Source: Flavihumibacter soli (lineage in GTDB: Bacteria; Bacteroidota; Bacteroidia; Sphingobacteriales; Sphingobacteriaceae). Taken from it: a stretch of DNA of 64,000 bases. The DNA is taken from assembly GCF_010692725.1 (NCBI RefSeq), contig NZ_JAAFZB010000086.1, positions 1-64,000 on the forward strand. Direction: 5' to 3'. Position numbers and translations under genes: made by a program. The notes below the pieces were generated by a model. The model worked only from the letters and a program-made list of their open reading frames with translations, was not told the DNA's origin and made no database searches. Positions 29,755-62,841 of the stretch are shown here, piece after piece (positions within the stretch are counted from its first letter, which is position 1; every line of letters starts with the position of its first letter).

Positions 29755-29764
29755 TCGATTTTAT

Positions 29765-32077: not shown

Positions 32078-32086
32078 TCAATTAAA

Positions 32087-33178: not shown

Positions 33179-33189
33179 AACTCATTGAA

Positions 33190-34293: not shown

Positions 34294-34333
34294 CAGGGTG
34301 TTATTAATCGACGGCCAAATAACGGAATGAGAT

Positions 34334-35776: not shown

Positions 35777-35871
35777 TAGCTTAAATAAAGATCCGGAACT
35801 TCTTTTTAGCAATTCATTAAAATAATAGCAATTATAAGTAAAATGGCGTACTTCTTAATTTTTTTTAAAAA

Positions 35872-35930: not shown

Positions 35931-35980
35931 CCATTATCGACTTGTATACAACCGTTACGATCTCAAAAGGAACTACACAA

Positions 35981-37174
35981 ATGAAGTCTGACAACCTAAA
36001 AAAGCGCATCCTAAAGGAACTGTACTCCGAAAAAGTACTTTCATGCGCTGATTTAAGTCTTCGGATTAAGAAAAGTTTACCCCTTGTTGCTAAATCCGTC
36101 AATGAACTGATTGAAGAAAAGTATGTCACAGAAGTTGGCCATGGGCCCTCCAGTGGCGGCCGCCGGCCTATAATGTATTCCCTTAAACCTCAGGAAAAGC
36201 TCATTGTTGCGGTAGCGATGGACCAGCTTTCCACACATATCGTCATTTATGACCTGATGCATAACCAGCTGTCGGACACTAAAATGATTGAACTTAAGCT
36301 CGAGAATAATCCTGATGCTTTACCCGAGCTTATCAGCCTGATTGACTCTTACATACTTGATTCCGGCTTTTCCAGAGAAAGCATTATCGGTGTGGGAATT
36401 AGTATGCCGGGGTTCGTTGATGTAAAAAAAGGGATTAACTACTCCTTCCTGGATGCGGGCGGACGAAGCCTTCAAAAGTATATTGCTGACAGGCTGGACC
36501 TGCCGGTCTACATAGATAATGATTCCTGTCTGATCGCTTTAGCAGAACTTAAGTTTGGACTGGCAAGATCGAAGCAGAATGTAATGGTTATTAACGTGGC
36601 CTGGGGTATTGGCCTTGGCATGATACTGAACGGAGAGATATTTCGTGGCCATAGCGGATTTGCCGGGGAGTTCAGCCATATACCAACATCCAATGAAGGA
36701 CTTTTATGCAGCTGCGGCAAACGGGGATGTCTCGAAACAGAGGCTTCGCTGGTAGTTGTTGCCAGGAAGGCTGTCGAAGGAATAAAAGAAGGCCGTGTAT
36801 CGAGTCTTCAGCAGGAGCTTAACGATCATACGAGGTTACCCGGGGATGTGGTCATGGAAGCCGCGAATAAAGGGGATCAATTCGCCATTGAATTGCTTTC
36901 GCAGGCTGGGTACTCCATCGGAAAAGGCTTAGCGGTATTAATTCATATCATCAATCCATCGGCCATTATTTTGAGCGGAAGAGGCGCAGTTGTCGGAAGA
37001 ATTCTTTCGGCCTCTATCCAGCAGTCGCTGCATAAATATGCCATTCCACGTTTAGCTGAAAGTACAGAGCTGCAGATCTCGCAATTAGGATCGGAGGCGG
37101 CCCTGATCGGAGCAGCAGCGCTGGTCATGGAATATGTGGGTGAAGAGATCGGAACTAATGGAACTTCTGCTTAA
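35981..37174 (+). CDS. ROK-family transcriptional regulator (NagC/XylR type)
   Basis: About 397 residues from the ATG at 35981 (a TTG at 35942 is in frame but less likely). N-terminal winged helix (residues 1-60, with SLRIKKSLPLVAKSVNELIEEKYV), then a ROK sugar-kinase-like domain: VGISMPGFVD, YIDNDSCLIALAE, GHSGFAGEFSHIP and the zinc motif CSCGKRGCLE. Such proteins repress sugar genes and are released by a sugar or amino-sugar ligand. Position between the left operon and susC suggests it controls this locus, possibly in response to GlcNAc or mannose. Confidence 0.9.
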   Translation: MKSDNLKKRILKELYSEKVLSCADLSLRIKKSLPLVAKSVNELIEEKYVTEVGHGPSSGGRRPIMYSLKPQEKLIVAVAMDQLSTHIVIYDLMHNQLSDTKMIELKLENNPDALPELISLIDSYILDSGFSRESIIGVGISMPGFVDVKKGINYSFLDAGGRSLQKYIADRLDLPVYIDNDSCLIALAELKFGLARSKQNVMVINVAWGIGLGMILNGEIFRGHSGFAGEFSHIPTSNEGLLCSCGKRGCLETEASLVVVARKAVEGIKEGRVSSLQQELNDHTRLPGDVVMEAANKGDQFAIELLSQAGYSIGKGLAVLIHIINPSAIILSGRGAVVGRILSASIQQSLHKYAIPRLAESTELQISQLGSEAALIGAAALVMEYVGEEIGTNGTSA

Positions 37175-37244: not shown

Positions 37245-40200
37245 ATGAAAAGAACACTACTTGTTTTTTTACTTATCCTTGGGTGGTCCCTGGGATATGC
37301 TCAGGTCCGGCAAACCATCACCGGAACGGTTAAGGACAGCAAAGGAGAGGTATTGCCAGGAGTAAGTATCCTTGAAAAAGGAACCACAAATGGTGTACAA
37401 ACCCGGGCTGATGGTACTTTTAGCATCAGTGTGGGATCCAAAGCGGTCCTTCGGTTTACCTACGTCGGCTATGCCACCAAAGAGGTGCCTGCAGGAAGTA
37501 ATACCACGTTAAATGTTGTTCTTTCGGATGATACAGAACTTCTGAGCGAAGTTGTTATCACCGGCTTTGGTCAAACAACAGAAAAAAGGAAATTATCCTA
37601 TTCCGTGACAGAAGTTGGTGGCGAAGAACTTGCAAGGGCAAACAATGCTAACATTGTTAACTCGCTGCAGGGAAAAGTTGCGGGCGTTATGATCAATCAG
37701 GGTGCCAGCGGGCCTCAGTCTTCTTCCAAGATCAGAATCCGTGGTAACGCTTCATTAGGAAGTAATACCCAGCCACTGGTTGTTCTGGACGGAGTCTTAA
37801 TCGAGCCAGGTACGACAGGTGCTGACTCATGGGGTGACAATGCCGACTTTGGTAATACACTTAAAAACCTTAACCCGGATGATTATGAAAGCATCACGGT
37901 ATTAAAAGGTGCAGCTGCTTCCGCTTTATACGGATCAAAGGCTCAGAACGGGGTATTGTTAATTAACAGCAAAAAAGGAAGTACTACCAAAGGCCTGGGT
38001 GTAAACGTCTCCCAGACATCTTCTTTTGATGACCCTTATAAATTAGTAAACTTCCAGAATGAATATGGAGGAGGTGTCTCACCGGTATTTGAGAAAGATC
38101 TGGCCGGCGTAGACATGGTGTCTAACATTGCCAATATCAATCAGGGCGGTTATTCATTCGGCCCGCGTTTCGACGGCCACATGGTGAAAGATCTGGACGG
38201 AACGATGAGACCATGGGTAGCTAACAACCCTCTTGACTTTTTTCAAACCGGGAAATTCATTAACACGAACGTAGCGGTAGAAGGAGCAAACGACAACACA
38301 ACGTTCCGTTTATCTTACACAAACCTGGATAATTCAAGTATCCTTCCGGGCAATGAGTTAAACAGAAACACCTTTGCGATCAGGGCAACACAGAAGGTTT
38401 CTAAGTCGATATCTCTTGATGCGAGCGTAAACTATACCCTGTCGAATTCAGTAAACCCTGGTCGCCAGGGAAGTAGAAACAATCCGCTGTTCGCCTTCAC
38501 CTACTATATGCCGAGAAATGCGGATATAAATTTTTACACCCAGAACTATGTTAACCCTGCAGGTGGGGCGCTTAGTTCAAGTGAAGCAGATAAATATGAT
38601 CCCTACCGTCTTGGAAGCTGGGCATTTGACTTTTTTGAAGATAAGAGAACTCAAAAGGAAAATAACCTGTTAGCGAACCTGGATGTGAATGTACAGATCA
38701 CTCCATGGCTTTCTGCCCTGGTGAAAGCCAATACAAATTCACTCAGCTCGAACTATGAGCGGAAAAAGCTCGGTCGCGGAATCAATTTCCAGGGCGGAGA
38801 TTATCAGATCACGCAATCAAGCAACAGAGCTTATCGTGTTCAGGGTTTATTAAATGGTAACAGACGTTTAACCAGCGATATTGAAGCAACGTTTTCCTTA
38901 GGAGGAGAATCATACCAGTATAACGTGAACGGATCAGGCTATTTTAATGAAACCTACACTACCGGCGGATTTAAAATTCCTGGCGTATTTGCGATATCAA
39001 ACTCACTTGATCCTGCTATCACACGCGCGTTCCCTAACCCGGGCAGAAGAACTGATGCGGTGTACCTGTATGGTGATTTCAGCTGGAAAGATATGCTCAC
39101 ATTGAATTACAGTGGACGTAATGACTGGTCATCATCGTTAACATATAAGGATGGCAGCGGCGATTATTCTTACTTCTATCCAAGTGTGGGAATGGCCTTC
39201 ATTGCAAGTGAATTGCCTGCTTTGAAAAACAGTAATATACTGTCTTTTGCTAAAATCAGAACGGCTTTAGCGTATACCGGTCTTGATGCTGAACCGCAGT
39301 TAACAAACCGGGCTGGCTATTATAACCTGAACGGAAGTTTCAATAATGCGTCAGGCGGAAACCAATCGGTTTACGGATTCTCAGACCAGATATTAAAAAA
39401 CAACAGCCTGAAGAACCAGCTGACCCGCGAATTTGAAATAGGAGCCGATCTGCGCTTTTTCAACAATCGCTTGGGATTTGATATCTCATGGTATAAGAGA
39501 AATTCAACCAACCAGATCTTAAGTTTTGCGTTGCCTGCAGAATCAGGAGTTAGTTCACAGTCTCTGAACGCCGGTGATATTCAGAACAAGGGTATAGAGA
39601 TCCTGATGACAGCGGTACCGGTGCAGACCAAAAATTTCAACTGGACCTCCAATATTAACTTTACCCGCAACGAGAACAAGATCATCTCACTTACCTCCGG
39701 AGTTGATACATATGAACTGGATCTTGCGTTTGGTAATGACATTGCATCCGTTGCTAAAGTTGGCGGAGAATATGGTACGCTGGTTACAAGCTACGGGTAC
39801 TCTCACTACCAGAAGAAAGATGCCAGCGGAAATCCGGTGAGCCATCCGAATAATGGGAAAAAAGTACTGGGTAACACTGGTTACGGAACTACAGGCGGAT
39901 ACTACACTTTCGTGAGATCAGGTGACTATAATGGTGAGCGAAAAGAGCTTGGTACCATGATGGAGAAATTCCTGGCAAGTACTACGCAACAGGTAAGCTA
40001 CAAAAACGTTAACCTGAGCTTCCAGATGGATGCTAAAATTGGCGGATTAATGGCTTCAGGTACGCACCAGTATGGATCGGCTAACGGATCACTGGCAAAT
40101 TCACTATTCGGACGTAATGCGGCATCCGGCGGTGTAACTTATGTTGATAATGCGGGTGTAAGCCATGATGACGGAATCATTCCTGATGGTGTATTGAACG

Positions 40201-40610
40201 ACGGTTTGAGCGCTGTTAACGCAGCTGGACAGACAGTTCCCCTCGGCGGTATGACATATTCAGATGCTGTTCAGCAAGGCTTATTAAAACCAATTCCTGC
40301 TTATGCTTACTATGAGAACCTTTCACAATGGTCAAGCGGTATCAGGGAGTATTCAACTTTCGAAAATTCATGGATTGCAGTAAGGGAAGTATCTCTTGGA
40401 TATACACTGCCTTCCAAATTAACACAGAATTTAAAGATGAACAGTTTAAGAGTGGCATTAACAGGTAGAAATCTCGGCTACGTATACAAAACTGCGAAAG
40501 ACGGAATCAATCCTGAAGGGATATTCAGTAATCGTGCGGGCGCTTTCGCCGAATATGGTGGCTGGCCTTATGTAAGGAGCCTCGGATTTAACATTCAAGC
40601 TGGATTTTAA
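37245..40610 (+). CDS. SusC/RagA-family TonB-dependent outer-membrane transporter
   Basis: 1121 residues. Signal peptide (to YAQ, about 20), carboxypeptidase-regulatory-like domain (TITGTVKDSKGEVLPGVSI, 24-105), TonB-box-like SEVVITGFG, plug (about 115-250, with NSLQGKVAGVMI and LVVLDGVLI) and a 22-strand barrel ending LGFNIQAGF with terminal Phe. It imports oligosaccharides across the outer membrane with its SusD partner encoded 18 bp downstream. Substrate inferred from neighbours: N-glycan fragments. Confidence 0.95.
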   Translation: MKRTLLVFLLILGWSLGYAQVRQTITGTVKDSKGEVLPGVSILEKGTTNGVQTRADGTFSISVGSKAVLRFTYVGYATKEVPAGSNTTLNVVLSDDTELLSEVVITGFGQTTEKRKLSYSVTEVGGEELARANNANIVNSLQGKVAGVMINQGASGPQSSSKIRIRGNASLGSNTQPLVVLDGVLIEPGTTGADSWGDNADFGNTLKNLNPDDYESITVLKGAAASALYGSKAQNGVLLINSKKGSTTKGLGVNVSQTSSFDDPYKLVNFQNEYGGGVSPVFEKDLAGVDMVSNIANINQGGYSFGPRFDGHMVKDLDGTMRPWVANNPLDFFQTGKFINTNVAVEGANDNTTFRLSYTNLDNSSILPGNELNRNTFAIRATQKVSKSISLDASVNYTLSNSVNPGRQGSRNNPLFAFTYYMPRNADINFYTQNYVNPAGGALSSSEADKYDPYRLGSWAFDFFEDKRTQKENNLLANLDVNVQITPWLSALVKANTNSLSSNYERKKLGRGINFQGGDYQITQSSNRAYRVQGLLNGNRRLTSDIEATFSLGGESYQYNVNGSGYFNETYTTGGFKIPGVFAISNSLDPAITRAFPNPGRRTDAVYLYGDFSWKDMLTLNYSGRNDWSSSLTYKDGSGDYSYFYPSVGMAFIASELPALKNSNILSFAKIRTALAYTGLDAEPQLTNRAGYYNLNGSFNNASGGNQSVYGFSDQILKNNSLKNQLTREFEIGADLRFFNNRLGFDISWYKRNSTNQILSFALPAESGVSSQSLNAGDIQNKGIEILMTAVPVQTKNFNWTSNINFTRNENKIISLTSGVDTYELDLAFGNDIASVAKVGGEYGTLVTSYGYSHYQKKDASGNPVSHPNNGKKVLGNTGYGTTGGYYTFVRSGDYNGERKELGTMMEKFLASTTQQVSYKNVNLSFQMDAKIGGLMASGTHQYGSANGSLANSLFGRNAASGGVTYVDNAGVSHDDGIIPDGVLNDGLSAVNAAGQTVPLGGMTYSDAVQQGLLKPIPAYAYYENLSQWSSGIREYSTFENSWIAVREVSLGYTLPSKLTQNLKMNSLRVALTGRNLGYVYKTAKDGINPEGIFSNRAGAFAEYGGWPYVRSLGFNIQAGF

Positions 40611-40628: not shown

Positions 40629-42233
40629 ATGAAGAATATAAAAAACTATTCAAGATATGTTCTTTCGCTGCTGGCGATACTCCTGATAGGCGTCTCGTGT
40701 AAGAAAGAAGAGTTCGTAGAGGCCAATCTAAACCCGGAGACCCTGTATTCAATTAAACCGGAAGATCAGTTTTTGAAAGCTGTGACCAGTACGGTTATTG
40801 ACTTCGAATACTTTGCGGATGTATACAGAGCCTCGAATTTATGGATGCAGTACGCAACTCCTGTTGCCGGAAATGGCTTAAACTTCAATAACGTAGGTTC
40901 TCAATTCAATACCCGGTATGGTCGTTTTTACAGCACCATTGGCCCTGCATTAGTTGATGGCATCAAAACAATCGACGCAATGCCTGAAGCTGATAAAGCA
41001 GCAAGAACTCAGATGCGAGCGATCACCCAGATCCTCCTATCCTATTATGGCTTTTACGTTAGCGATATAAATGGAAGTATCCCTTATAGCGAAGCTTTCC
41101 AGGCGCGGTATGGCGGAAAGATCACTCCAAAATATGATACACAGCAGGAAGTATTCAGCCTTGTAGATCAGGAGTTAAAAGGTGCAGTGGCGGCCTTAAA
41201 AGCTACACCCGGCGCAACGCAGGTTAACCTGGGCAATAACGATCCTTTTTATAACGGAGATGTGATCAAATGGACTAAGCTCGCTAATGCTTTACGTTTA
41301 AAGATCGCTTTGAGGTTAATTAAAGTAGACCCGGCAAAGTTAAGATCAATAGCAACTGAAGTTCTGGCAGATAATGTTCAAATGTCTGATGTCGGGGATT
41401 CATGGGCGGTTAAGGCTGGGCCAAGCTTTGCTGATGCGGGCGGAAACTTCAATCCTTCATCTTTCGTTGCTGGCAAGCCGGTAGTTGACTTCATGCTCGC
41501 TAAAGGTGACCCGAGGTTAAGAATATTCTACAGACCCAATGCAGCGGGTAATTACGTTGGAAGCTTTACAAGTCCTGATGAAGCCAAGTTACCTCAGAAT
41601 GCGCCATTATATGCATCAGTAAATAATATGTCGCAATTGCAGCATCGCCTTTTCACACCGAATTATGATGAGAACGACGGAAATGGTCGTGGCACAGGTG
41701 CTAGTTTCTTTCCTTTCCTGACATATGCAGAATACTGCTTTATTCGTGCAGATATGGCAGCACGGGGTGTGACTGCTGATGTTGCAGAAAGCTGGTATAA
41801 AAAAGGGGTTTACGCTTCCATACAGTATTACAATGACCGGGCAATAGCAGCTAAGGTTACTGATTACGCTACAGTTGCAACGCCTGAGATTGATACTTAT
41901 TACAATATGGCGGGAGTTAAATTTGATCCTGCAATAGCTGCCCAGCAGATCGGTGTTCAGGCATATCTTGATTTTTACCGTCAGCCTTTGGAAGCATGGG
42001 CATGGTGGAAACGTACAGGTTATCCAAATACAACTTCTGTTCTGGCATGGTCGCCTTTAAAAGGAAACGGAGGTACTTTGGAACTGAACAGAAGAGCAGG
42101 TATCAATTTGCTGGCCTCTTCCAATTTAAACTATGAGAATCAGCAATCCGCTCTTACTGAAATGGCTCAGAATCCGGATTTCGGACAAGGGCCAAATGAT
42201 CCCTTCGGAAGAGTGTGGTGGGATAAGAAATAA
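40629..42233 (+). CDS. SusD-like (SusD_2 type) surface glycan-binding lipoprotein
   Basis: 534 residues. Lipobox GVSC; mature protein alpha-helical TPR-like scaffold. The layout (NLNPETLYSIKPEDQFLKAVTS, WMQYATP, QILLSYYGFYVSDINGSIPYSEAF, WTKLANALRLKIALRL) fits the SusD_2/RagB-like subfamily. Forms a lid over SusC and delivers glycans. Followed by a strong terminator at 42262-42294, which closes the SusCD unit. Confidence 0.94.
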   Translation: MKNIKNYSRYVLSLLAILLIGVSCKKEEFVEANLNPETLYSIKPEDQFLKAVTSTVIDFEYFADVYRASNLWMQYATPVAGNGLNFNNVGSQFNTRYGRFYSTIGPALVDGIKTIDAMPEADKAARTQMRAITQILLSYYGFYVSDINGSIPYSEAFQARYGGKITPKYDTQQEVFSLVDQELKGAVAALKATPGATQVNLGNNDPFYNGDVIKWTKLANALRLKIALRLIKVDPAKLRSIATEVLADNVQMSDVGDSWAVKAGPSFADAGGNFNPSSFVAGKPVVDFMLAKGDPRLRIFYRPNAAGNYVGSFTSPDEAKLPQNAPLYASVNNMSQLQHRLFTPNYDENDGNGRGTGASFFPFLTYAEYCFIRADMAARGVTADVAESWYKKGVYASIQYYNDRAIAAKVTDYATVATPEIDTYYNMAGVKFDPAIAAQQIGVQAYLDFYRQPLEAWAWWKRTGYPNTTSVLAWSPLKGNGGTLELNRRAGINLLASSNLNYENQQSALTEMAQNPDFGQGPNDPFGRVWWDKK

Positions 42234-42261
42234 TGGTTGGTTTAGTTAATGATTAGTGGCG

Positions 42262-42294
42262 AGCTCCCGGCATTTGCCGGGAGCTTCGTTTTTT
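42262..42294 (+). terminator. Rho-independent terminator after susD
   Basis: Perfect ten-base-pair stem AGCTCCCGGC / GCCGGGAGCT with four-base loop ATTT, followed by TCG and a run of six T residues. Confidence 0.92.
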
Positions 42295-42350: not shown

Positions 42351-42929
42351 ATGAAGATTAAGTGGTTGATCCTGGGCCTCATTTTTTTTACCTGGTATTC
42401 CGTGAATGCACAGGTCCTCAAGACTGTATCTCCCAGTGTGATCCAGACCATAAAACTGCGTACGACAGGAAATGAAGTGTTTACAATTCCGTTAAAAAAA
42501 CCGTCCGTATTCGTTTTCCTTGCTCCCGATTGTCCCTTAAGTAAAAATTATGCCCCGCTACTGAATTCACTGGCTAAAAAACATCCCAATATAAATTTTT
42601 ATGGTATTTTCCCTGGCAAAAGCTATTCGTTCAAAGAGATCAGCGACTATGGGAAAGACTATGCTGTCAGCTTTCCGCTCCTCTCCGATCCGCTAATGCA
42701 ACTTTCAGAATATACCAGGGCAAAGGTCACTCCTGAGGTAATTTTGATGGATCAGAAAGGCATTATCCTTTATAGAGGTTTAATTGACAACTGGGCAGTT
42801 TCTTTGGGGAAAAAACGCCAGGTTGTTACAAACCATTACCTGGACCAGGCTATCAGCCTTTATGAAATGGGAAAGCCAATTACTATTACACACACCGATC
42901 CGGTTGGATGCCTGATCAACGATATCTGA
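42351..42929 (+). CDS. Secreted redoxin-domain (thioredoxin-like) protein
   Basis: 192 residues with signal peptide (to NAQ, 21). AhpC/TSA/redoxin fold: PSVFVFLAPDCPLSKNYAPLL (about 51-71), VTPEVILMDQKGIILYRGLID. It has DCPLS with a single Cys and no second Cys in a CxxC arrangement; a C-terminal DPVGCLI supplies another Cys. Many proteins with this signature sit next to, or are fused to, heme-c/PHM-type proteins. First gene of a four-gene operon; the next start follows its stop by one base. Confidence 0.82.
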   Translation: MKIKWLILGLIFFTWYSVNAQVLKTVSPSVIQTIKLRTTGNEVFTIPLKKPSVFVFLAPDCPLSKNYAPLLNSLAKKHPNINFYGIFPGKSYSFKEISDYGKDYAVSFPLLSDPLMQLSEYTRAKVTPEVILMDQKGIILYRGLIDNWAVSLGKKRQVVTNHYLDQAISLYEMGKPITITHTDPVGCLINDI

Positions 42930-42930
42930 A

Positions 42931-44253
42931 ATGAAGAAATACCTCCTGCTCCTTTTGGTTTTTATTGCCATCCATCAAACAGCATTACAAGCCCAGACAG
43001 TTACCTTTTACAAAGATGTTGCGTCTATAATTCACACAAAATGTACACCCTGTCACCGGCCAGGTGAAGCCGCGCCATTCTCATTGATCACCTATGAAGA
43101 TGTAGCTAAAAAAGGTAATTTTATTAAGAAAGTAACTCAAAGCCGGTATATGCCTCCCTGGAAACCGGATAATCATTATTCTGCCTTCCAGAATGACCGG
43201 TCCCTGACTGCAGAGCAGATAAAAACTATCGGGAAATGGGTGGATGATAAAATGCCGAAAGGGAAACCGGGCAAAGAAGATCAGAACATACTGGCGAAAT
43301 ATCTGCCGGGTACTCAATATTCCCGAAAGCCTGATCTCACATTGAAAATGAACAAATCCTTTGCTGTTAAGGGCGACAACAAGGAACGTTTCATTGTATT
43401 TAAAATACCCTTCGAGGTCGGCCAGGAAGAAAATGTTGAAGCGATAGAATTTACCAGCTCAAATAAAAAAGTCATTCACCATGTTAACTATGGATTTTAC
43501 CCGGTAGCGGATCCTTCCATAGACTTGTATAAGACGGCGGACTATATAAACCTGACGGATGAAGACCGCAGAAAATACGACCAGTATATCCCCTATAAAA
43601 AGCAAATGACTTATTATGCGGGCTGGATACCGGGATCGAGTTATGAATCGTATCCAAAAGACTTTGGCTGGGTATTGCCAAAAAGAGGAATAATGCTCTT
43701 AACTGTGCATTACGCTCCGGTAGGAAAAGACGAAGAAGATATTTCCGGGGTAAACCTGTTTTTTAAAAAAACTCCAATTAAGCGCAAGGTGGATGTGATC
43801 AGTCTCGGATCCGCGGGGATAGGAGAAAAAGAGATCTCGCCTTACTTCGTCATTGAGCCTGATTCAGTCTCAACATTCCGCCTAAAGATCACGACGCCTA
43901 AAGATCAGTCTCTGATGTATGTCTGGCCGCATATGCACTACATAGGCAAAGAGTTTAAAGCATTTGCGGTAACACCCGCAGGCGACACCATTAAGCTGGT
44001 GCACATTCCCTCCTGGGATTTCAGGTGGCAGGAAATATACAAGTTTAAGAAACTGGTTAAGATACCCGAAGGCTCAATCCTAACAATCGAAGGAACCTAT
44101 GATAACACATCCGGTAATCCCGATAACCCATATAATCCCCCCAGAATGATCTATTCCGCCAATGACATGAAATCAACGGATGAAATGATGACCCTCCTGA
44201 TGGTTTTTTTACCTTACAAAGAAGGCGATGAGAATATCACGCTTTCGGACTGA
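42931..44253 (+). CDS. Heme c-PHM-like copper monooxygenase fusion
   Basis: 440 residues, exported (signal to about 21). Residues 23-110 are a c-type cytochrome domain with CTPCH (C38, C41, H42) and MPPWKPD. Residues 150-440 show the full copper-ligand set of peptidylglycine-alpha-hydroxylating-monooxygenase folds: H183-H184 (IHHVNYGF), H260 (LLTVHYAPVG), H334/H336 (WPHMHYIG) and Met419 in DEMM, matching PHM's DEMC motif. It would hydroxylate an unknown substrate with electrons through heme c rather than ascorbate; the donor is inferred. No function is established for the family in Bacteroidota. Confidence 0.8.
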   Translation: MKKYLLLLLVFIAIHQTALQAQTVTFYKDVASIIHTKCTPCHRPGEAAPFSLITYEDVAKKGNFIKKVTQSRYMPPWKPDNHYSAFQNDRSLTAEQIKTIGKWVDDKMPKGKPGKEDQNILAKYLPGTQYSRKPDLTLKMNKSFAVKGDNKERFIVFKIPFEVGQEENVEAIEFTSSNKKVIHHVNYGFYPVADPSIDLYKTADYINLTDEDRRKYDQYIPYKKQMTYYAGWIPGSSYESYPKDFGWVLPKRGIMLLTVHYAPVGKDEEDISGVNLFFKKTPIKRKVDVISLGSAGIGEKEISPYFVIEPDSVSTFRLKITTPKDQSLMYVWPHMHYIGKEFKAFAVTPAGDTIKLVHIPSWDFRWQEIYKFKKLVKIPEGSILTIEGTYDNTSGNPDNPYNPPRMIYSANDMKSTDEMMTLLMVFLPYKEGDENITLSD

Positions 44254-44263
44254 CCTTACCTTC

Positions 44264-47200
44264 ATGAATAAAGTACCCGCTATTCTTGCATTTCTAAGTC
44301 TCCTGACCACTTTTGCATCTGCGCAAACACCGGGAGGGCAATCTCTCTTTACTTTGCTACCGTCAAAGACAACGGGAATTCAGTTCGTCAACAAGCTGGA
44401 AGAAAATGACAGTCTTCATGTGATGAATTATGAATACCTGTATAATGGTAACGGTGTCGGCGTTGCTGATTTCAATAACGATGGCTTAGCTGATATCTTT
44501 TTTTCATCCAACACAACTTCCTATAAACTCTATTTAAACCAGTCAGATCTGCGTTTTGAGGATATAACCGCTAAAGCGAATGTCAAAGGGAACGGCACAT
44601 GGGCTACAGGGGTCAGTATAGCAGATGTGAACGGTGATGGATTACCAGACATTTATGTTTGCCATTCAGGAAAATATCCTCCTTTAAAACTAGCCAACGA
44701 ATTATTTATTCATCAAGGGATAAAAGACGGAAAACCAGTTTTCAAAGAAATGGCCAGGGAATATGGTCTCGACGCGCCTGGTACACAATCAACCCAGGCT
44801 GCTTTTTTCGATTATGACCTGGATGGGGACCTGGATATGTTCTTACTTAACCATTCGAATCATACATATAATCCGCTTCTCAATACCCGCAAGATCCGAA
44901 GCACCTTCAGTAAAGAATTTGGTAATCGCTTATTTCGAAACGATGTGACAGGCGGCAAGCCCACTTTTAAGGATGTTACCTCGGAAGCCGGGATCGTCAA
45001 TAACGCCTTGAATTTTGGTCTAAGTGTGACCGTTAGTGATCTGAATAAAGACGGCTGGCCGGATATTTTTACCACCAGCGACTACACAGAACAGGATTAT
45101 CTCTATCTGAATAATAAGAACGGCACCTTCAAAGAAAGCATCAGAAGTGCTATGGCACATACCTCAAAATTCTCTATGGGGGCTGACATTGCTGACTATA
45201 ACAATGACGGATTAGCGGATATCATAACCCTGGATATGCTGCCGGAAGATAACCACCGCCAAAAGATGTTGAAGGGTGCTGACGAGTACGATACCTATAA
45301 CTTGTTAGTGGACAGTGGCTACTATCATCAGCAAATGCGCAATATGTTACAGCTTAACCGCGGAATAGCGCCTGACGGAACATTATATTTTAGTGAGATC
45401 GGGCAGCTGGCCGGCGTTTCTAATACGGATTGGAGCTGGTCAGCCCTACTGGCTGATTTTGATAATGATGGCTGGAAGGATCTTTTTGTGTCGAACGGCT
45501 ACCTGAGAGACTTTACTGATATGGACTTTTTAAAATATACGGTAGCCAATGCACAGTCTGAAGCTTTGAAATCAGGTACCGTAAAGTTCAAAACTTACGA
45601 ACTGGTAAAAAAAATGCCTTCCAACAAGCTGAACAATTACTTTTTCAGGAATAACGGTAACCTGACATTTACCGATAAGAGCAAGGCATGGGGCATAGAC
45701 CAGCCTGCGGTTTCAAATAGTGCATCGTATGCTGACCTGGATAATGATGGCGATCTGGACCTGATTATTAACAACATTAATGAACCGGTAATGATCTACC
45801 GTAATAACACCGATCAGGCTAAAGCCAAAAGTCTGCGGGTAAAACTGGTCGGCACCGGCCTGAATACTTCAGCACTTGGAGCCAAGGTTTATTTAGAAAC
45901 TGCGTCGGGACTTCAATACCAGGAGAAGTATGTGGTGAGGGGTTATCAGGCAAGTATGGATCCTGTGCTTTTGTTCGGTATCGGCACCTCTCCTATTCGA
46001 TCTTTAAAAGTCATATGGCCGAACGGGAAACAATCCAGGTTGGAAAATGTCAATACCACCCAGCTCTTAACTTTAAGACAGGATGAGGCTCATCAAGACG
46101 CTGAACCGGAAGCAAAGCCAAATCCTCTCTTCACCGATATAACTGAAAAGTCCGGCCTTAAGTTCAAGCATGCAGAGAACGATTTTATAGATTTTAAAGG
46201 TGAGCCCTTGATGCCGTACCAATTATCCAAAATGGGACCGGCAATTGCAACCGCCGATGTAAACAAGGACGGCATGCAGGATCTATTTTTTGGTGGTGCG
46301 CTTGGCCAGGCAGGGCAATTATTTGTGGCTAGAGCTGATGGTACCTTTCAGGCTGCTGCTTCTGTTCAACCATGGGAAAAGGACGCTAATTCGGAAGATG
46401 TTAACGCGGTGTTCTTTGATGCCAACGGTGACGGGAACCAGGATCTTTGGGTGGTTAGTGGCGGAAATGAATACGATAATGGTGCTCCTGAATACCAGGA
46501 CCGCCTTTATCTCGGTGATGGCAACTCCGGCTTTATCAAGGCAGCTAATAGCTTGCCTTCTATGTTAAGCAGTAAACAGGCGATATCGGTCGGGGATTTC
46601 GATCAGGATGGCGATATGGACATCTTTGTTGGAGGAATGGGTATTCCAGGCTCCTTCCCTCTTTCCTCCAGAAGCTGGCTGCTCAGGAATGACAGCGGGA
46701 ATAATCAGGTAAAGTTTACAGATGTGACAGCAGAGTTAGCTCCGGACCTTTTAAACCCCGGAATGGTAACTTCTGCCTGCTGGCAGGATCTGCAGAAGGA
46801 TGGATATCCGGAGCTGGTTATTGCGGGACACTGGATGCCGGTCCAGATTTTTGATAATATTAAGGGACGGTTCACCGACATTTCCGATCGCTCCGGATTG
46901 AAGAATACCAATGGACTTTGGTCAACTCTTCTGCCGGTTGACATCAATGGCGACGGAGCAATGGATTTTATTGCAGGTAACGCCGGTTTAAATAGCCAGC
47001 ATAGAACATCCCCAGCAGAGCCGATGACAGTCTATGCAGCTGATTTCAATGGCGACGGTGCAATTGATCCGATCCTTACTTATTACATTCAGGGAAAAAA
47101 CTATCCTTATGCGTCGCGCGATGAGTTGCTGGATCAGATAGTCCAGATGCGCAAACGTTTCGTCAGATATGCTGATTACGCCGACATAACTATTGACGAG

Positions 47201-47617
47201 CTGTTTTCAAAGCAGCAGCTTGAAGGTGCAAAAAAGTTCTATTGCATACAGCTGGCTTCAGGGATTTTCGAAAATGACGGAAAAGGAAATTTTGTTTTTA
47301 AACCATTACCTGTCGAAGCACAGTTTTCCAGTGTTTATGGCGTATTAGCTGATGACTTTAATAAGGATGGAATAAAAGACCTTTTACTTGCCGGAAATTT
47401 TTATCCCAACCGGGTACAGGCTGGAAGAGCCGATGCCGGTAAAGGATTGATGTTAACGGGAGACAGTTCAGGCATGTTCAAGCCTGTGGCTCCAAAAGTC
47501 AGCAATTTCTATGCGCCGGGTGATGTCCGTGGAATGATCGGCCTAAAAGGAAAATCCGGCATGAATAAGATAGTAGTCGTCAAAAATGACGATATGGTTG
47601 AGGTTTTAGAATATTAA
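44264..47617 (+). CDS. Large FG-GAP/VCBS-repeat protein with ASPIC/UnbV domain (CRTAC1-like)
   Basis: About 1117 residues from ATG 44264 (an ATG at 44228 would overlap the previous gene). Signal peptide ending ASAQ. Many FG-GAP/integrin-like calcium blades with DxNxDGxxD: FNNDGLADIFFS, VNGDGLPDIYV, YDLDGDLDMFL, NKDGWPDIFT, YNNDGLADIITLDML and more. Mid-chain ASPIC/UnbV (SLRVKLVGTGLNTSALGAKVYLE; IRSLKVIWPNGKQS). A second propeller follows. Extracellular or surface; role unknown. Confidence 0.9.
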   Translation: MNKVPAILAFLSLLTTFASAQTPGGQSLFTLLPSKTTGIQFVNKLEENDSLHVMNYEYLYNGNGVGVADFNNDGLADIFFSSNTTSYKLYLNQSDLRFEDITAKANVKGNGTWATGVSIADVNGDGLPDIYVCHSGKYPPLKLANELFIHQGIKDGKPVFKEMAREYGLDAPGTQSTQAAFFDYDLDGDLDMFLLNHSNHTYNPLLNTRKIRSTFSKEFGNRLFRNDVTGGKPTFKDVTSEAGIVNNALNFGLSVTVSDLNKDGWPDIFTTSDYTEQDYLYLNNKNGTFKESIRSAMAHTSKFSMGADIADYNNDGLADIITLDMLPEDNHRQKMLKGADEYDTYNLLVDSGYYHQQMRNMLQLNRGIAPDGTLYFSEIGQLAGVSNTDWSWSALLADFDNDGWKDLFVSNGYLRDFTDMDFLKYTVANAQSEALKSGTVKFKTYELVKKMPSNKLNNYFFRNNGNLTFTDKSKAWGIDQPAVSNSASYADLDNDGDLDLIINNINEPVMIYRNNTDQAKAKSLRVKLVGTGLNTSALGAKVYLETASGLQYQEKYVVRGYQASMDPVLLFGIGTSPIRSLKVIWPNGKQSRLENVNTTQLLTLRQDEAHQDAEPEAKPNPLFTDITEKSGLKFKHAENDFIDFKGEPLMPYQLSKMGPAIATADVNKDGMQDLFFGGALGQAGQLFVARADGTFQAAASVQPWEKDANSEDVNAVFFDANGDGNQDLWVVSGGNEYDNGAPEYQDRLYLGDGNSGFIKAANSLPSMLSSKQAISVGDFDQDGDMDIFVGGMGIPGSFPLSSRSWLLRNDSGNNQVKFTDVTAELAPDLLNPGMVTSACWQDLQKDGYPELVIAGHWMPVQIFDNIKGRFTDISDRSGLKNTNGLWSTLLPVDINGDGAMDFIAGNAGLNSQHRTSPAEPMTVYAADFNGDGAIDPILTYYIQGKNYPYASRDELLDQIVQMRKRFVRYADYADITIDELFSKQQLEGAKKFYCIQLASGIFENDGKGNFVFKPLPVEAQFSSVYGVLADDFNKDGIKDLLLAGNFYPNRVQAGRADAGKGLMLTGDSSGMFKPVAPKVSNFYAPGDVRGMIGLKGKSGMNKIVVVKNDDMVEVLEY

Positions 47618-47621
47618 GATA

Positions 47622-48938
47622 ATGAAGGTATTTAAAATAGTTCTGTTTTTGCTCCTGTCTTCCTTCGGAGTAGAGGCCCAATGGAGAAAACACGAGACGG
47701 AGTCTACAACATTGCACCGGTCCCAAAAGGCCCTTTCCGACGTCATCGTGCACGATGTTTTCTCTCCCCCGGTTGCAAGCCGCATCTTCGCTTATGCGAA
47801 CATCGCTGCATACGAAATTCAGGTATTACAACATAGAAAATTCCAATCGCTCAGCGGTAAAGTCAATGGTTTCAAGGCAATTCCTAAACCCGCTGATACG
47901 AGTAACCTGAGTTATTCTTTGTCAGCTACGGTCGCATACCTGAAAGTAGCCGGTAAACTGGTGTTCTCAGAAGATATGATCCGGGACAGCACCGTAAGCA
48001 TCCTGAAATGGTATTCTTCGAATGGCTATCCTGAAAAGGTAATTCAAACCTCGGTAGCATATGGGCAGACTGTTGCAGATTCGGTGATCGCATTCTCTGC
48101 AAAAGACAACTATCGTGAAACGCGAAGAATGAGGCGGTATTCCTATATCAAAAAGGAAGGTTACTGGCAGCCAACGCCGCCCGGCTATATGGCAGCTGTA
48201 GAGCCATATTGGAACAAGATAAAACCCTTAATCATGAGCAGCGCTGAGCAGTTTAAACCTACGGCTCCTATACCTTACAGCACTGAAAAAAACAACAATT
48301 TCTATAAATCTGCAAACGAAGTTTATTTGTCAGTTAAAAACATCACGAAAGATCAATTGCTCATTGCGAATTTCTGGGATTGTAACCCTTTCTATTTGAA
48401 TACTAAAGGCCATTTGAATTTCGCCACCAAAAAGATCTCTCCCGGAGCTCACTGGCTTTCTATTGCAGGTATTGCCACCCGAAGTATAAATGCCGATTTT
48501 ATGAAGGCTTCAGCTGCTTATACTTATACCTCCATTGCTTTATTTGATGCGTTCATAAGTTGCTGGGACGAGAAATACCGAAGTAACTATATCAGGCCCC
48601 AGACTTTCATTAATTCACACATAGACGAAAGCTGGGAGCCTATATTGCAAACCCCGCCATTTCCGGAATATCCCAGTGGGCATAGTGTGGCTTCAACGGC
48701 AGCAGCTTCCGTACTAACGGCTCTTCTGGGCGATAACTTTACCTTTAATGATAACACGGAAATAGACTATGGCTTACCGGTGCGTAAGTTCAATTCATTT
48801 AACGACGCCGCCAACGAGGCAGCAATCAGCAGGTTATACGGAGGAATTCACTATCGGGAAGCTATTGTTAACGGGCAGTCGCAGGGAAAAGCTTTAGGAG
48901 AGTTCATACAGGGTAAATTGGGAATAAACTCCTTTTAG
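47622..48938 (+). CDS. Vanadium-dependent haloperoxidase/PAP2-superfamily protein
   Basis: 438 residues, exported (signal to EAQ, 20). The vanadate/phosphate site is recognisable: K318 and R325-P326 in KYRSNYIRP, PSGH 351-354 (S352, G353, H354) and S403-R404 with H410 in SRLYGGIHYRE. In classical haloperoxidases H410 would be followed at +4 by Asp; here it is Ala, with Glu at +3. The protein may be a haloperoxidase-like or phosphatase-like enzyme. It ends the four-gene redox operon (five-bp gap to the gene before it). Confidence 0.85.
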   Translation: MKVFKIVLFLLLSSFGVEAQWRKHETESTTLHRSQKALSDVIVHDVFSPPVASRIFAYANIAAYEIQVLQHRKFQSLSGKVNGFKAIPKPADTSNLSYSLSATVAYLKVAGKLVFSEDMIRDSTVSILKWYSSNGYPEKVIQTSVAYGQTVADSVIAFSAKDNYRETRRMRRYSYIKKEGYWQPTPPGYMAAVEPYWNKIKPLIMSSAEQFKPTAPIPYSTEKNNNFYKSANEVYLSVKNITKDQLLIANFWDCNPFYLNTKGHLNFATKKISPGAHWLSIAGIATRSINADFMKASAAYTYTSIALFDAFISCWDEKYRSNYIRPQTFINSHIDESWEPILQTPPFPEYPSGHSVASTAAASVLTALLGDNFTFNDNTEIDYGLPVRKFNSFNDAANEAAISRLYGGIHYREAIVNGQSQGKALGEFIQGKLGINSF

Positions 48939-49015: not shown

Positions 49016-50434
49016 CTAAACCATCAAACACTGAGGTTTTTCCTGGTATGTCTTCCACAGGAATTCCCCAAAAATGGTATTTGCCCAGGCAAACCAGGCG
49101 CGCGTAAACTTTTTGGGATCATCCTTATGAAATGACTCGTGCATGAAACCGGTTCCGCCATGCACGTTTTTTAAACTCTGAACGCACCACTTAATTTCAT
49201 CCTCACTGTCAGTTGTCAAACCTCTGGTTATGATACCTAATGGCCAGATCAGATCCAAACCTGTATGAGGACTTCCAACACCCTCAGCAGCTGAGCCCTT
49301 AAAATAAAAAGGATTGTTATCCGACAGCACGAGTTTCCGGGTATTTTGATACACCGGATCGGTTCGCTTCACCGCATCAAGATATGGCATGGAAAGAAGA
49401 CTTGGAATATTCGCGTCGTCCATTAAGTTAAAACTGCCATATCCGTTTACTTCGAATGCGTAAACCTTCCCGAACACCTGGTGGTCAATGATACCATACT
49501 TTTGAACAGCGCTTTCTACTTCCTGGGCGAGACCAGTTAATTCTGCAGCAAGCTTATCATCGTTTGTGATCGCACTGATCATTTTGGCCGCCTGTCTGAG
49601 ACTGGTTATGGCAAACAGGTTTGAAGGAATCAGGAACGGGTAGATAGTCGCATCGTCACTTGGTCTGAAAATAGAGCAGATCAGTCCTACCGGCTTCACA
49701 GGATAGCCATAACCACCCAGAGGAACACCATCTGTTGCCCAGGCAGTTGTGCGCTGGAACTTATACGGGCCCGCATTGTCCTTTCTCTGCTGTTCTTTGA
49801 ATACCTTCAAAGTGCTTTTAATAGCATCCTGCCATTTACTGTCAAAAGGGCTCTTATCGCCGGTTATTGTCCAGTAATGGTAGGCAAGTCTGATGGGATA
49901 GCATAACGAATCAATCTCCCATTTTCTTTCATGAATGCCCGGTTTCATGTCTGTCAGATCACTTTTCCATTCACCTACTTTATTTTCATCATTATAAAAT
50001 GCGTTGGCGTATGGATCTTTAAGTATGCACTCCGTTTGCCTGTTAATGACACCGGCAATCAGATCCTGTAATGGCTTGTCTGATTTGATAAATCCGAGAT
50101 AAGGCCAGACCTGCGCAGTGCTGTCACGAAGCCACATAGCGTCGATATCACCTGTAATGACATAGGTATCCGGACGACCGTTCTTCATCTGAAAAGTCAC
50201 CGTAGTATCAAGGGTATTAGGGAAACAGTTCTCAAAGAGCCATCCTAATTCCTCGTTTTTAACCTTTTTCCTAAACTGACCGATTGCGCTTTCTACTGAT
50301 TTACTTTGAAATCTACGCTTAGAAACAGGGGTTCGGACTTCAGGAAAACCTTGAGCGGCGGCGAAACTTAATTTGTCAAGAAACAACCCTGCTCCTATTA
50401 AACCGGTATTTTGAATAAATCTTCTTCTTTTCAT
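49016..50434 (-). CDS. GH125 exo-alpha-1,6-mannosidase
   Basis: 472 residues. Tat-type start (KRRRFIQNTG). GH125 (DUF1237) signature: NCFPNTLDTTVTF, YVITGDIDAMWLRDSTAQVWPY (about 91-112), VGEWKSDLTD, HERKWEIDSLCYPIRL, RPSDDATIYPFLIPSN, EGVGSPHTGLDLIWPLGI and GFMHESFHKDDP, WFAWANTIFGE. The family is metal-independent, inverting and cleaves alpha-1,6-mannose from N-glycan cores. Final gene of the right 11-gene operon. Confidence 0.95.
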   Translation of the reverse strand: MKRRRFIQNTGLIGAGLFLDKLSFAAAQGFPEVRTPVSKRRFQSKSVESAIGQFRKKVKNEELGWLFENCFPNTLDTTVTFQMKNGRPDTYVITGDIDAMWLRDSTAQVWPYLGFIKSDKPLQDLIAGVINRQTECILKDPYANAFYNDENKVGEWKSDLTDMKPGIHERKWEIDSLCYPIRLAYHYWTITGDKSPFDSKWQDAIKSTLKVFKEQQRKDNAGPYKFQRTTAWATDGVPLGGYGYPVKPVGLICSIFRPSDDATIYPFLIPSNLFAITSLRQAAKMISAITNDDKLAAELTGLAQEVESAVQKYGIIDHQVFGKVYAFEVNGYGSFNLMDDANIPSLLSMPYLDAVKRTDPVYQNTRKLVLSDNNPFYFKGSAAEGVGSPHTGLDLIWPLGIITRGLTTDSEDEIKWCVQSLKNVHGGTGFMHESFHKDDPKKFTRAWFAWANTIFGEFLWKTYQEKPQCLMV

Positions 50435-50445
50435 TGTGCCCTCTG

Positions 50446-52326
50446 TTATTTGTCGAAAACTACGCTTTGAACTGATGTTTTACCAATTTGTTTCCCATTT
50501 TTAAAAGCAGCAGCTTTTACAGTTGCGGTCCGGAATAAGTCAAAGGGTTTCAGATATGTTTTTGACCCTGTATTGGGCTCAGAACCATCAAGAGTGTAAA
50601 ATATTTGTGGTTGATCTGAGTCTGTTGACAATGTAACGGTTGCCCTTGACCTGGCAGATTCGATAACAATTTTCTGACGGACATTGTAAGCGCTTTTAGA
50701 ATAATTGATTCCCATTTTGTCATAGCGCCCGTATTGGTCTTCCATTCTCCTTTTAAAGTCTTCCCAATTCTTTTCCGAAGGCTGCGTCCAGGCAACTTCG
50801 GCTAAGGCTGCCATACGCGGCATGACCATATATTCCACCTTTTCCGTTTCAGGAATATATTCAGTCCACAAATTAGCCTGTACCCCTTTTATGAACTTAG
50901 CTTCTTCCTTTGTAAGTTCAGCAGGTGTCGGGTCGTAAGAATAAACTCTTTCCAAAGTTGTGTAACCACCTATCGCTAACGGCTCCCCACTGGCTTTCCC
51001 CTGGTAGTGATCAAAATAAAGATGCGAATTCGGACTCATCACTACCTCGTGATGCTGTTTTGCCGCAGCGATACCACCTTCTGTTCCACGCCATGACATT
51101 ACTGCTGCATTGGGTGCCAAACCCCCTTCCAGGATCTCATCCCATCCAATTATGTCCTTATTCTTAGTGAGCAGAAACTTCTCTATCCGCTTGATAAAAT
51201 AACTCTGCAACTCATGCTCATCTTTCAATCCCTCCGCCTTAATACGGGCCTGACATTTCGGACAAACCTTCCAGCGGGTCTTAGGACTTTCATCTCCTCC
51301 AATATGAATAATGGAACTTGGAAACAGCTCAGCTACTTCGGTTAATACGTTCTCCAGGAATTCAAAGGTTTTCTCATTGCCTGCGCAGAATACATCATCA
51401 TATACGCCCCATGTTTTCCCCACCTTAAAAGGCCCGCCCGTACAGGAAAGCTCGGGATAGGAAGAGAGAGCAGCCACGGCATGACCCGGCATTTCTATCT
51501 CAGGGACGACATTTATATAGCGCTCCTTTGCATACGCCACAACTTCCCGGATCTGGTCCTGTGTATAAAAGCCACCATGACGAACCGAATCAAATTTCTG
51601 GTCGTTGCTGTAAGCACCGATCAAAGTACCCTCTCTCCAGGCGCCGGTCTTAGTCAGGTTGGGATATTTCTTTATCTCAATGCGCCAGCCCTGGTCATCT
51701 GTCAGATGCCAGTGAAAATTGTTCATCTTATGCATTGCCAGGTAATCAATAAACTGCTTCACAAAGTCGACCGGGTAAAAGTGTCGGCATACATCCAGCA
51801 TCATGCCCCGCCAGCCATACCTGGGCTTGTCAGAAATAGTGACGGCCGGTATCGTGATCTGATTCGAAGCTTGCAGTTCGCCGTTTGGAGGCAATAGCTG
51901 GTAAATCGTTTGCATCCCATAGAAAATTGCCTGGTTGGTATTTGCCCTAAGGGTTAACCCTTCAGGAGTAGAAACCAGCAAATAACCTTCTTTCTCCAAA
52001 CTATCAGGTGCATCCTTCAGACTTAAAGTGATGACATTTCCCTTTGCCCCTGTTTTTACAGGTATCGAAAACCCTGTTAAGGACTTCAGATGTGCAGAGA
52101 GGATTGAGGCGGTCCTCTTTAACTCTTTATCGCCGCCATCAATTACTATACTGGTCCCGGGCTTTAGAGAAAAACTGCCGGGTGCTTCAATCACATTCAA
52201 GGGTTGCGGGATCAGCGACAACCTGGTTCCTTTTGAGGCTGAAGTATCCTGGGCCTCTGCACTTAAAACCATACCTGCAAGGAAGCATATCAGTGTCAAT
52301 AAACGGTTTCTTTTCATTGTATTCAA
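50446..52326 (-). CDS. GH20 beta-N-acetylhexosaminidase
   Basis: 626 residues with signal peptide (to SAEAQ). GH20b N-terminal domain, then catalytic barrel: RGMMLDVCRHF, NNFHWHLTDDQGWRIEI, VPEIEMPGHAVAAL and the catalytic Asp345-Glu346 in HIGGDESPK; the substrate acetamido group acts as nucleophile. C-terminal chitobiase-like region with YTLDGSEPN. Removes terminal beta-GlcNAc (or GalNAc) from N-glycan antennae. A start nine bases later (MKRNRL) is possible. Precedes GH125 by 11 bp. Confidence 0.95.
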   Translation of the reverse strand: MNTMKRNRLLTLICFLAGMVLSAEAQDTSASKGTRLSLIPQPLNVIEAPGSFSLKPGTSIVIDGGDKELKRTASILSAHLKSLTGFSIPVKTGAKGNVITLSLKDAPDSLEKEGYLLVSTPEGLTLRANTNQAIFYGMQTIYQLLPPNGELQASNQITIPAVTISDKPRYGWRGMMLDVCRHFYPVDFVKQFIDYLAMHKMNNFHWHLTDDQGWRIEIKKYPNLTKTGAWREGTLIGAYSNDQKFDSVRHGGFYTQDQIREVVAYAKERYINVVPEIEMPGHAVAALSSYPELSCTGGPFKVGKTWGVYDDVFCAGNEKTFEFLENVLTEVAELFPSSIIHIGGDESPKTRWKVCPKCQARIKAEGLKDEHELQSYFIKRIEKFLLTKNKDIIGWDEILEGGLAPNAAVMSWRGTEGGIAAAKQHHEVVMSPNSHLYFDHYQGKASGEPLAIGGYTTLERVYSYDPTPAELTKEEAKFIKGVQANLWTEYIPETEKVEYMVMPRMAALAEVAWTQPSEKNWEDFKRRMEDQYGRYDKMGINYSKSAYNVRQKIVIESARSRATVTLSTDSDQPQIFYTLDGSEPNTGSKTYLKPFDLFRTATVKAAAFKNGKQIGKTSVQSVVFDK

Positions 52327-52359
52327 TTTAATTATGTATTTGATCTTTATTCGAAAACA

Positions 52360-53142
52360 TTATTTTATCGCTCTATCCAGGTGAACGTATCCTCCGTCTA
52401 CATGGATCAACTGTCCAGTAGTATGGCTTGACCTCGGTGATAAAAGAAATGCTACAGTATTTGCTATTTCTTCGGTAGTAGTCATCCGGTTTCCCAAAGG
52501 GATCTTTGCGGTGATCTCTGCGAGTCGTTCTTTCGGATTATCGAGAGTACTGATCCAGCTCTCGTATAGAGGAGTATAGCTTTCAGCTACGATCACAGCA
52601 TTCACCCGTATTTCATACTTTAATAATTCAACGGCCCACTCTCGCGTTAAAGCGCTTCTTCCTCCATTAGCAGCCGCATAAGCCGAAGTACTTCCCTGTC
52701 CCGTTTCCGCAGTTTTAGAACCAATATTTACAATTGATCCCTTTGATTTTATGAGTTCCGGGAGGGCATAATGCGCAACTAAGTAATAGTGTACTAGGTT
52801 TCTATGTAAAGAATTCATAAAGGCTTGATAGCTTCCCTTTTCAAGACTAACTCCGTCATTCACGCCGGCATTATTTACCAGGCCATCGATCCTACCAAAC
52901 TCTTTGATGATATCCTTAACTGACCGCTCACAATCGGCAGGGTCTGTTAATTCAGCAACTACCTGGAATGCCTGACCACCGGCAGATACAATTTCTGAAA
53001 CAGTTTTATTATTATCCGCCTCTTTTCGCCCGATTATTACAGGAATGGCACCTTCCGCACCAAGTAATTTCGCAATCCCTTCCCCGATACCTTTTGCACC
53101 ACCTGTGACGATGATAACCTTATTTTTAAGTTCCAGATTCAT
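52360..53142 (-). CDS. SDR oxidoreductase, probable L-fucose dehydrogenase
   Basis: 260 residues. Classical SDR folding: GGAKGIG (14-20), NNAG (90-93), Ser142, Tyr155 in AYAAANGGR. The Lys four residues after the catalytic Tyr is Asn159. The tract LTREWAVELLKYEIRVNAVI and AESYTPLY is, from memory, shared by fucose-pathway SDRs, where Asn may be the norm. Predicted to oxidise L-fucose to the lactone with NAD(P)+. It lies between the PNGase F and GH20 genes. Confidence 0.75.
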   Translation of the reverse strand: MNLELKNKVIIVTGGAKGIGEGIAKLLGAEGAIPVIIGRKEADNNKTVSEIVSAGGQAFQVVAELTDPADCERSVKDIIKEFGRIDGLVNNAGVNDGVSLEKGSYQAFMNSLHRNLVHYYLVAHYALPELIKSKGSIVNIGSKTAETGQGSTSAYAAANGGRSALTREWAVELLKYEIRVNAVIVAESYTPLYESWISTLDNPKERLAEITAKIPLGNRMTTTEEIANTVAFLLSPRSSHTTGQLIHVDGGYVHLDRAIK

Positions 53143-53155
53143 TTTGTTTTCCTGA

Positions 53156-55081: not shown

Positions 55082-55110
55082 TTATTGGAACGTACTATTA
55101 ATATTCACCA

Positions 55111-57299: not shown

Positions 57300-57354
57300 A
57301 TGGGCTGGAGCTTATGATTGTACACTATGGATCATATTAATTATTGTTTTCCGA

Positions 57355-58212: not shown

Positions 58213-58220
58213 AATGTATT

Positions 58221-58982: not shown

Positions 58983-59054
58983 ATAATCCTTGCAATTTAT
59001 AATTTATGATGGTTGGCATAATAGTTCCAATTGATTTCGGGCATACTGCATAAT

Positions 59055-61166: not shown

Positions 61167-61185
61167 AATCAGTATCTATTTTTTT

Positions 61186-62838: not shown

Positions 62839-62841
62839 ATC

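Follow-up and report, generated by a model that had tools for sequence, protein, structure and literature searches.

The window, as we call the whole stretch analysed here, is the first 64,000 nucleotides of contig NZ_JAAFZB010000086.1 of Flavihumibacter soli. At 42351-48938, its open reading frame (ORF) listing confirmed four closely packed, co-directional ORFs on the plus strand. They encode a redoxin with a thioredoxin fold (RDX), a cytochrome c domain fused to a predicted copper monooxygenase of the PHM/DBH type (cPHM), an FG-GAP protein related to CRTAC1 and UnbV (UnbV), and a homologue of vanadium haloperoxidases (gene 4). Upstream lie genes for a SusC-type transporter, a SusD-like lipoprotein and a ROK-family regulator (Table 1).

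RDX and cPHM are separated by 1 bp, and UnbV and the haloperoxidase gene by 4 bp. If UnbV starts at its first ATG (44228), it overlaps cPHM by 26 bp; from the second ATG (44264, MNKVPAILAF..., at the signal peptide), the gap is 10 bp. A first-pass annotation of this sequence had claimed gaps of 1-10 bp and export of all four products. Both claims hold, with UnbV taken from 44264 and a Sec-type signal sequence recognised in each protein. The same annotation had described a four-gene unit placed between SusCD and N-glycan genes. The four genes are indeed a co-inherited set, but SusC, SusD and often a ROK regulator also belong to the unit, so that SusCD lies inside it, and the N-glycan genes (from 49016) are convergent and outside the transcript. 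The Bacteroidetes promoter consensus TTTG-N17-22-TAnnTTTG had a single match in the window, away from the operon and not above chance, and sigma-70-like promoter sites occurred only at chance level.

Conservation of the SusCD-linked unit

Scanning 84,980 species genomes yielded 34 named cPHM loci from about 12 genera. In 31 of them redoxin/PHM comes directly after SusD, and in 30 the redoxin precedes PHM. The genera with cPHM loci include Pedobacter, Chitinophaga, Foetidibacter, Ferruginibacter, Paracnuella, Dyadobacter, Flavihumibacter, Spirosoma, Niabella and Pseudochryseolinea. Of the three SusD exceptions, L063 is at a contig end, L047 has SusCD downstream and L064 has no adjoining SusCD. 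A SusC homologue precedes SusD-redoxin-PHM in nearly all related loci, and a ROK gene is near SusC in 11. SusC and SusD are thus part of the unit, which is an importer-linked system. In relative L116, the RDX and cPHM homologues are joined as one polypeptide. No match to cPHM was found in plasmids.

The SusCD-PHM unit is repeated, with one PHM per importer, in nine Chitinophaga and Flavihumibacter loci. These loci (L036, L038, L040, L049-L053 and L065) carry two tandem copies, the second without a redoxin, and are always followed by a convergent gene for 867-885 amino acids, which in L036 reads as MutS-like. SusC is broken into frame-shifted pieces at L067:4225-7565 and L068:4243-11192, as are SusD and PHM in L068; these are pseudogenes or sequencing errors. 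Deep-branching cytochrome c-PHM proteins (L011-L021, L024, L033, L114) have an extra C-terminal domain of the sorting type of the type IX secretion system (T9SS) and no adjoining SusCD, so the SusCD link arose later in the cPHM family.

Just 3′ of SusD in the window is a hairpin, GAGCTCCCGGC-ATTT-GCCGGGAGCTT, followed by CGTTTTTT. A comparable hairpin of differing sequence was found in the same place in 22 of 27 SusD-redoxin gaps, compared with 0.02 expected from dinucleotide shuffles. This recurrence points either to a surplus of SusCD over the redox proteins or to a second promoter for the redox genes.

The window operon is a merger of two SusCD-linked modules, because both also occur separately. 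In Chitinophaga and others, SusCD-redoxin-PHM occurs by itself. SusC-SusD followed by one to three UnbV genes and a haloperoxidase gene, sometimes with a GH65 gene, is found in many genomes without PHM. Such PHM-free loci (L113, L117-L132) span many Bacteroidota families. The window's own genome has two more, L101-L102 (G000:C94:212000-251999) and L103-L104 (G000:C96:580000-612000), one of which carries two UnbV genes, a GH65 glycosidase gene and a second PAP2/haloperoxidase gene.

Among 297 sampled genomes of the phylum, PHM was found in 27 (E <= 0.001, some matches weak or partial), the haloperoxidase in 78 and UnbV in 141. Of the 30 best haloperoxidase loci, taken one per genome, 21 have UnbV immediately before the haloperoxidase gene. 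Co-occurrence of the domains had been set beforehand as a test of the proposal; in the locus surveys across Bacteroidota it is far above the random level.

The full set, SusCD-(RDX)-PHM-UnbV-haloperoxidase, is present in 15 loci: the window, G134, G186 and 12 named loci. L047 has it with SusCD downstream, three of the loci (G186, L047 and L055) lack RDX, and a 13th named locus, L054, breaks off within UnbV. The haloperoxidases of PHM operons, 15 in all, fall into one clade (95/81, and 96% of bootstrap trees). This makes one merger event probable and disfavours independent acquisition of the haloperoxidase by PHM operons. When the presence of UnbV-haloperoxidase was mapped on the PHM tree, four changes were needed, and one assembly with later losses is the simplest reading of the history of the four-gene operon. 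Beside the operon in 10 loci (L044:16340-18787 and nine others), outside the operon of the window, is a gene for an exported protein of 812-831 amino acids with an esterase/prolyl-oligopeptidase-like domain.

The encoded proteins

The cPHM alignment had 65 rows, from close orthologues down to ~27-30% identity, with other families included. One row is the window's own copy (L005), leaving 64 independent rows. All six predicted copper ligands are kept in every row, and the CxxCH motif in all but one, which is a truncated ORF call. The first-pass annotation had numbered the copper ligands as H183, H184, H260, H334, H336 and M419 and had made their conservation a test; the numbering is exact, and the conservation is complete in this alignment. 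M74, in an MPPW motif, is also kept in all 65 rows and is a candidate for the axial heme ligand.

A single cPHM sequence gave no match to the Protein Data Bank (PDB) by phmmer, and we therefore used profile and fold comparison. PF01082 was not reported for cPHM in the Pfam search. In a profile of 27 cPHM orthologues, H260 was aligned with LEVHYH and H334-x-H336 with HTH of human DBH, while the HH and Met ligands were assigned to DBH/PHM by order and spacing. An AlphaFold2 model from the same alignment had a predicted local distance difference test (pLDDT) score of 86.5. Its top 31 matches in the PDB were rat PHM and human DBH (E 1e-13 to 5e-10, probability 1.0), with a template modelling (TM) score (target) of ~0.56-0.67 against PHM. 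The predicted fold and both predicted copper sites of cPHM are thus PHM-like, with an extra cytochrome c domain at the N-terminus.

Shared with PHM/DBH are this predicted fold, the two His/Met copper sites and the ligand order (HH, H, HxH, M). In contrast to PHM/DBH, cPHM is bacterial, is fused to an N-terminal cytochrome c and is encoded in a SusCD operon. Because its scores are under the curated Pfam thresholds, cPHM is a divergent relative of the PHM/DBH copper monooxygenases and not a canonical member.

Gene 4 belongs to the Pfam family PAP2 and matches the vanadium iodoperoxidase of Zobellia galactanivorans (PDB 4cit) over its full length. Its vanadate-pocket residues are identical in 26 of 26 homologues and in 4cit. 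This homology and the intact pocket bear out the label of a vanadium-haloperoxidase-like PAP2 protein given in the first-pass annotation. In contrast to the Zobellia enzyme (PDB 4cit/4usz), gene 4 is encoded in a SusCD-RDX-PHM-UnbV operon, and its halide activity is putative.

UnbV has FG-GAP repeats, a UnbV_ASPIC domain and 13 calcium-type motifs of the form DxDxDGxxD; its best PDB match is human CRTAC1 (9etn, E 4.6e-18). It shares the FG-GAP calcium repeats and UnbV_ASPIC with the CRTAC1/ASPIC-UnbV proteins but is about twice the length of CRTAC1 and is linked to a haloperoxidase and SusCD. That it serves as a scaffold is a guess.

RDX has a borderline Pfam match to AhpC-TSA (8.5e-6). The nearest structures to its AlphaFold2 model (pLDDT 88) are 3u5r, 2cvb, 2ywi and ResA. 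A peroxiredoxin (AhpC/TSA) was considered and rejected, as 2cvb, 3u5r and 2ywi are thioredoxin-like and the sole Bcp was at rank 30. The first active-site Cys and the C-terminal Cys187 are invariant in 32 sequences.

Signal sequences, lipoboxes and T9SS tails were judged by eye. SusD is a lipoprotein by sequence. Neither a lipobox nor a discernible T9SS tail was seen in any of the window's four redox proteins. The UnbV and haloperoxidase paralogues of the PHM-free modules resemble lipoproteins; T9SS-type tails occur in some distant PHM relatives (Por_Secre_tail in L114). A Sec signal combined with neither lipobox nor T9SS tail makes a periplasmic site the more plausible one for the four window proteins. 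The system had earlier been placed outside the cell; export by a Sec signal stands, but the periplasm fits better.

Table 1. Features of the operon and its upstream genes, with positions in the window
Feature	Position	Strand	Basis
ROK-family (NagC-like) transcriptional regulator, probable regulator of the unit	35942..37174	+	Pfam ROK 8e-46 and winged helix
SusC-type TonB-dependent outer-membrane transporter	37245..40610	+	sequence and position before SusD
SusD-like outer-membrane lipoprotein (SusD-like_2)	40629..42233	+	Pfam 4e-60
Terminator- or attenuator-like hairpin, gap between SusD and the redox genes	42261..42286	+	11-bp stem
RDX, exported thioredoxin-fold protein, CPLS motif and conserved C-terminal Cys187	42351..42929	+	
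cPHM, exported cytochrome c domain fused to PHM/DBH-type dicopper monooxygenase fold (predicted)	42931..44253	+	
Heme c motif C38-TP-C41-H42 of cPHM (CTPCH, residues 38-42)	43042..43056	+	64/65 rows
H183-H184 of cPHM, predicted CuH ligands	43477..43482	+	65/65 rows
H260 of cPHM, predicted third CuH ligand	43708..43710	+	65/65 rows; aligned with DBH LEVHYH
H334-x-H336 of cPHM, predicted CuM ligands	43930..43938	+	65/65 rows; aligned with DBH HTH
M419 of cPHM, predicted CuM Met ligand	44185..44187	+	65/65 rows
CRTAC1/UnbV-like FG-GAP protein	44228..47617	+	start 44228, more likely 44264
Vanadium haloperoxidase, exported, iodoperoxidase-like	47622..48938	+	PDB 4cit E 3e-145, full length
Vanadate pocket of gene 4: K318, R325, S352-G353-H354, R404, H410	48573..48851	+	sequence comparison

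Proposed importer-coupled oxidation and its alternatives

The gene order, the co-inheritance, the predicted folds and the invariance of the metal ligands are established. Recurrence of the arrangement in many genera makes a real and conserved system probable, one that oxidises something imported by the cell. Our preferred explanation, with a probability of roughly 0.4, is that SusC, SusD, RDX, cPHM, UnbV and the haloperoxidase form one importer-coupled oxidation system, with a putative cargo and reaction. We favour it because of the fixed place of SusD upstream, the repeated SusCD-PHM units, the L116 fusion, the invariant ligands, the PHM/DBH-type predicted fold and the intact vanadate pocket. 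The haloperoxidase is assigned to the same system because the UnbV-haloperoxidase pair stands behind SusCD in many genomes and the haloperoxidases in PHM operons are one clade.

In such a system, SusCD, probably under ROK control, would capture a substrate at the outer membrane, probably one that contains carbohydrate. In or next to the periplasm, cPHM would hydroxylate a C-H bond of this cargo with O2. The electrons would enter through the fused heme c, and not from ascorbate, and pass to CuH and CuM. RDX may be a dedicated thiol partner that matures the heme/copper protein or keeps it reduced. The haloperoxidase would oxidise a halide with H2O2, part of which may stem from uncoupled copper-O2 chemistry, and thereby modify the same cargo. 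The calcium-propeller of UnbV may bind the cargo or the enzymes, and its gene holds the slot of SusE/F-type binding proteins in other Sus operons.

The surroundings offer clues to the substrate. The operon is flanked by an N-glycan/fucose region (27331-35812 and 49016-63984) with genes for GH3, GH92, three GH29, GH125, beta-hexosaminidase-like and PNGase F-like proteins. The region also holds amidohydrolase, FAA-hydrolase, SDR and MFS genes, which may form an oxidative L-fucose pathway. The window glycosidases are on the opposite strand, and no glycan-degrading enzyme was found in the co-directional run of the operon; in Ferruginibacter loci, GH29 genes follow the operon co-directionally. Ten of the 15 four-gene loci have a GH29 alpha-L-fucosidase gene within ~10 kb, where ~3% would be expected per locus under uniform spread, given 3-14 GH29 genes per genome in the counted four-gene genomes. 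This proximity is suggestive as a substrate clue.

Several observations weigh against importer-coupled oxidation by the whole set. The two modules occur apart, so neither needs joint action, and the hairpin after SusD may mean that the redox genes are transcribed separately. The Pfam match of cPHM to Cu2_monoox_C (PF03712) is weak (9.5e-4, 19.1 bits against a cut-off of 23), and the alignment of its profile to DBH is by itself not significant (E 0.17). The RDX of the window reads CPLS and lacks the second active-site Cys, while most orthologues read CPLC; the window copy thus does not have the CxxC active site of the ResA/TlpA thiol-disulfide oxidoreductases. The link to GH29 may come from the tendency of glycosidases to cluster near SusCD in general, and one genus contributes several of the loci.

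Alternatively, the enzymes might be a detoxification side-car that leaves the nutrient itself untouched, clearing O2-derived oxidants or plant/algal defence compounds encountered during feeding and merely co-regulated with the importer. Consistent with this, a haloperoxidase consumes H2O2, stress defence often involves redoxins and heme proteins, and the gene for the Zobellia iodoperoxidase vIPO3 is upregulated on the brown alga Ascophyllum (PMC9296495). The repeated, dedicated SusCD-PHM unit and the fixed place behind SusD point instead to chemistry on the cargo, and we consider detoxification unlikely. We are more sceptical of halide capture, in which the SusCD-UnbV-haloperoxidase module would oxidise iodide to a species transportable by SusCD, and cPHM, by passing heme c electrons to O2, would supply the haloperoxidase with H2O2 and would not be a hydroxylase. 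Gene 4 is closest to an iodoperoxidase, and SusCD-UnbV-haloperoxidase loci are widespread. In the marine flavobacterium Arenibacter C-21, iodine uptake needs glucose, O2 and calcium, or a source of H2O2 (PMC5064120), and a calcium-motif UnbV beside the haloperoxidase would fit this calcium dependence. The genome of C-21 has at least 5 homologues of this haloperoxidase, and candidate enzymes but no identified uptake genes are named there (PMC5064120); the likeness to the window lies in these homologues and in the need for O2, calcium and H2O2. However, halide capture does not predict glycosidase and sugar-type regulator genes beside the operon, SusCD usually imports large organic cargo, and the halide preference of 4cit relatives is not readable from sequence (PMC13198595).

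A role without redox chemistry, in which cPHM would carry copper, gene 4 would be a PAP2-type phosphatase and the unit would handle metal or phosphate esters, appears very improbable. PAP2 phosphatases and vanadium haloperoxidases have a common fold and active site, and RDX is weakly similar to the copper-resistance thioredoxin-fold proteins 6mhh and 6nen (E ~0.005). Against this stand both PHM copper sites, which are complete, the invariant heme motif, and recurrent neighbours that include no copper exporter or copper regulator. PAP2 phosphatases carry an HxxxD family motif; gene 4 reads HYREA at this position. A phosphatase is further disfavoured by acid phosphatases matching at E 0.2 only, in contrast to the full-length haloperoxidase match.

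Relation to known systems and implications

Every component of the preferred importer-coupled system is within or near a known family, and the arrangement is a variant of Sus-type loci. The window has the adjacent SusC and SusD of a Sus-type polysaccharide utilisation locus, a sugar-type regulator and nearby glycosidases. The difference is that redox metalloenzymes, not hydrolases or lyases, stand behind SusD. The planctomycete-type cytochrome c (PSCyt) proteins of freshwater Verrucomicrobia, proposed to act in carbohydrate breakdown on imported mono- or oligomers (PMC5615132), are c-type cytochrome proteins like cPHM and are predicted to be periplasmic or cytoplasmic. They have other domains, and the part of that account available to us reports no copper monooxygenase, SusCD or haloperoxidase with them (PMC5615132). 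The first-pass annotation knew of no described function for the combination, and in the mostly open-licence literature searched, we likewise came across no account of the two SusCD-linked modules, whether singly or combined.

More tentatively, and with the balance against it, there could be a widespread, undescribed importer-coupled oxidation class in Bacteroidota, in which SusCD is joined to heme c-PHM, to a haloperoxidase with a CRTAC1-like protein, or to both, and O2 or H2O2, not hydrolysis, makes the cargo usable. If true, this class would be a functional counterpart of the lytic polysaccharide monooxygenases (LPMOs) on a different fold. SusCD loci are a main route of Bacteroidota to complex carbon and are read almost entirely as hydrolase/lyase systems; a conserved subset that carries a heme-copper oxygenase together with a vanadium haloperoxidase would extend this scheme to oxidative chemistry. 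A testable physiological setting for bacterial PHM-like and CRTAC1-like proteins would follow, and the operon may offer a genetic handle on the H2O2-, O2- and calcium-dependent iodine uptake of flavobacteria.

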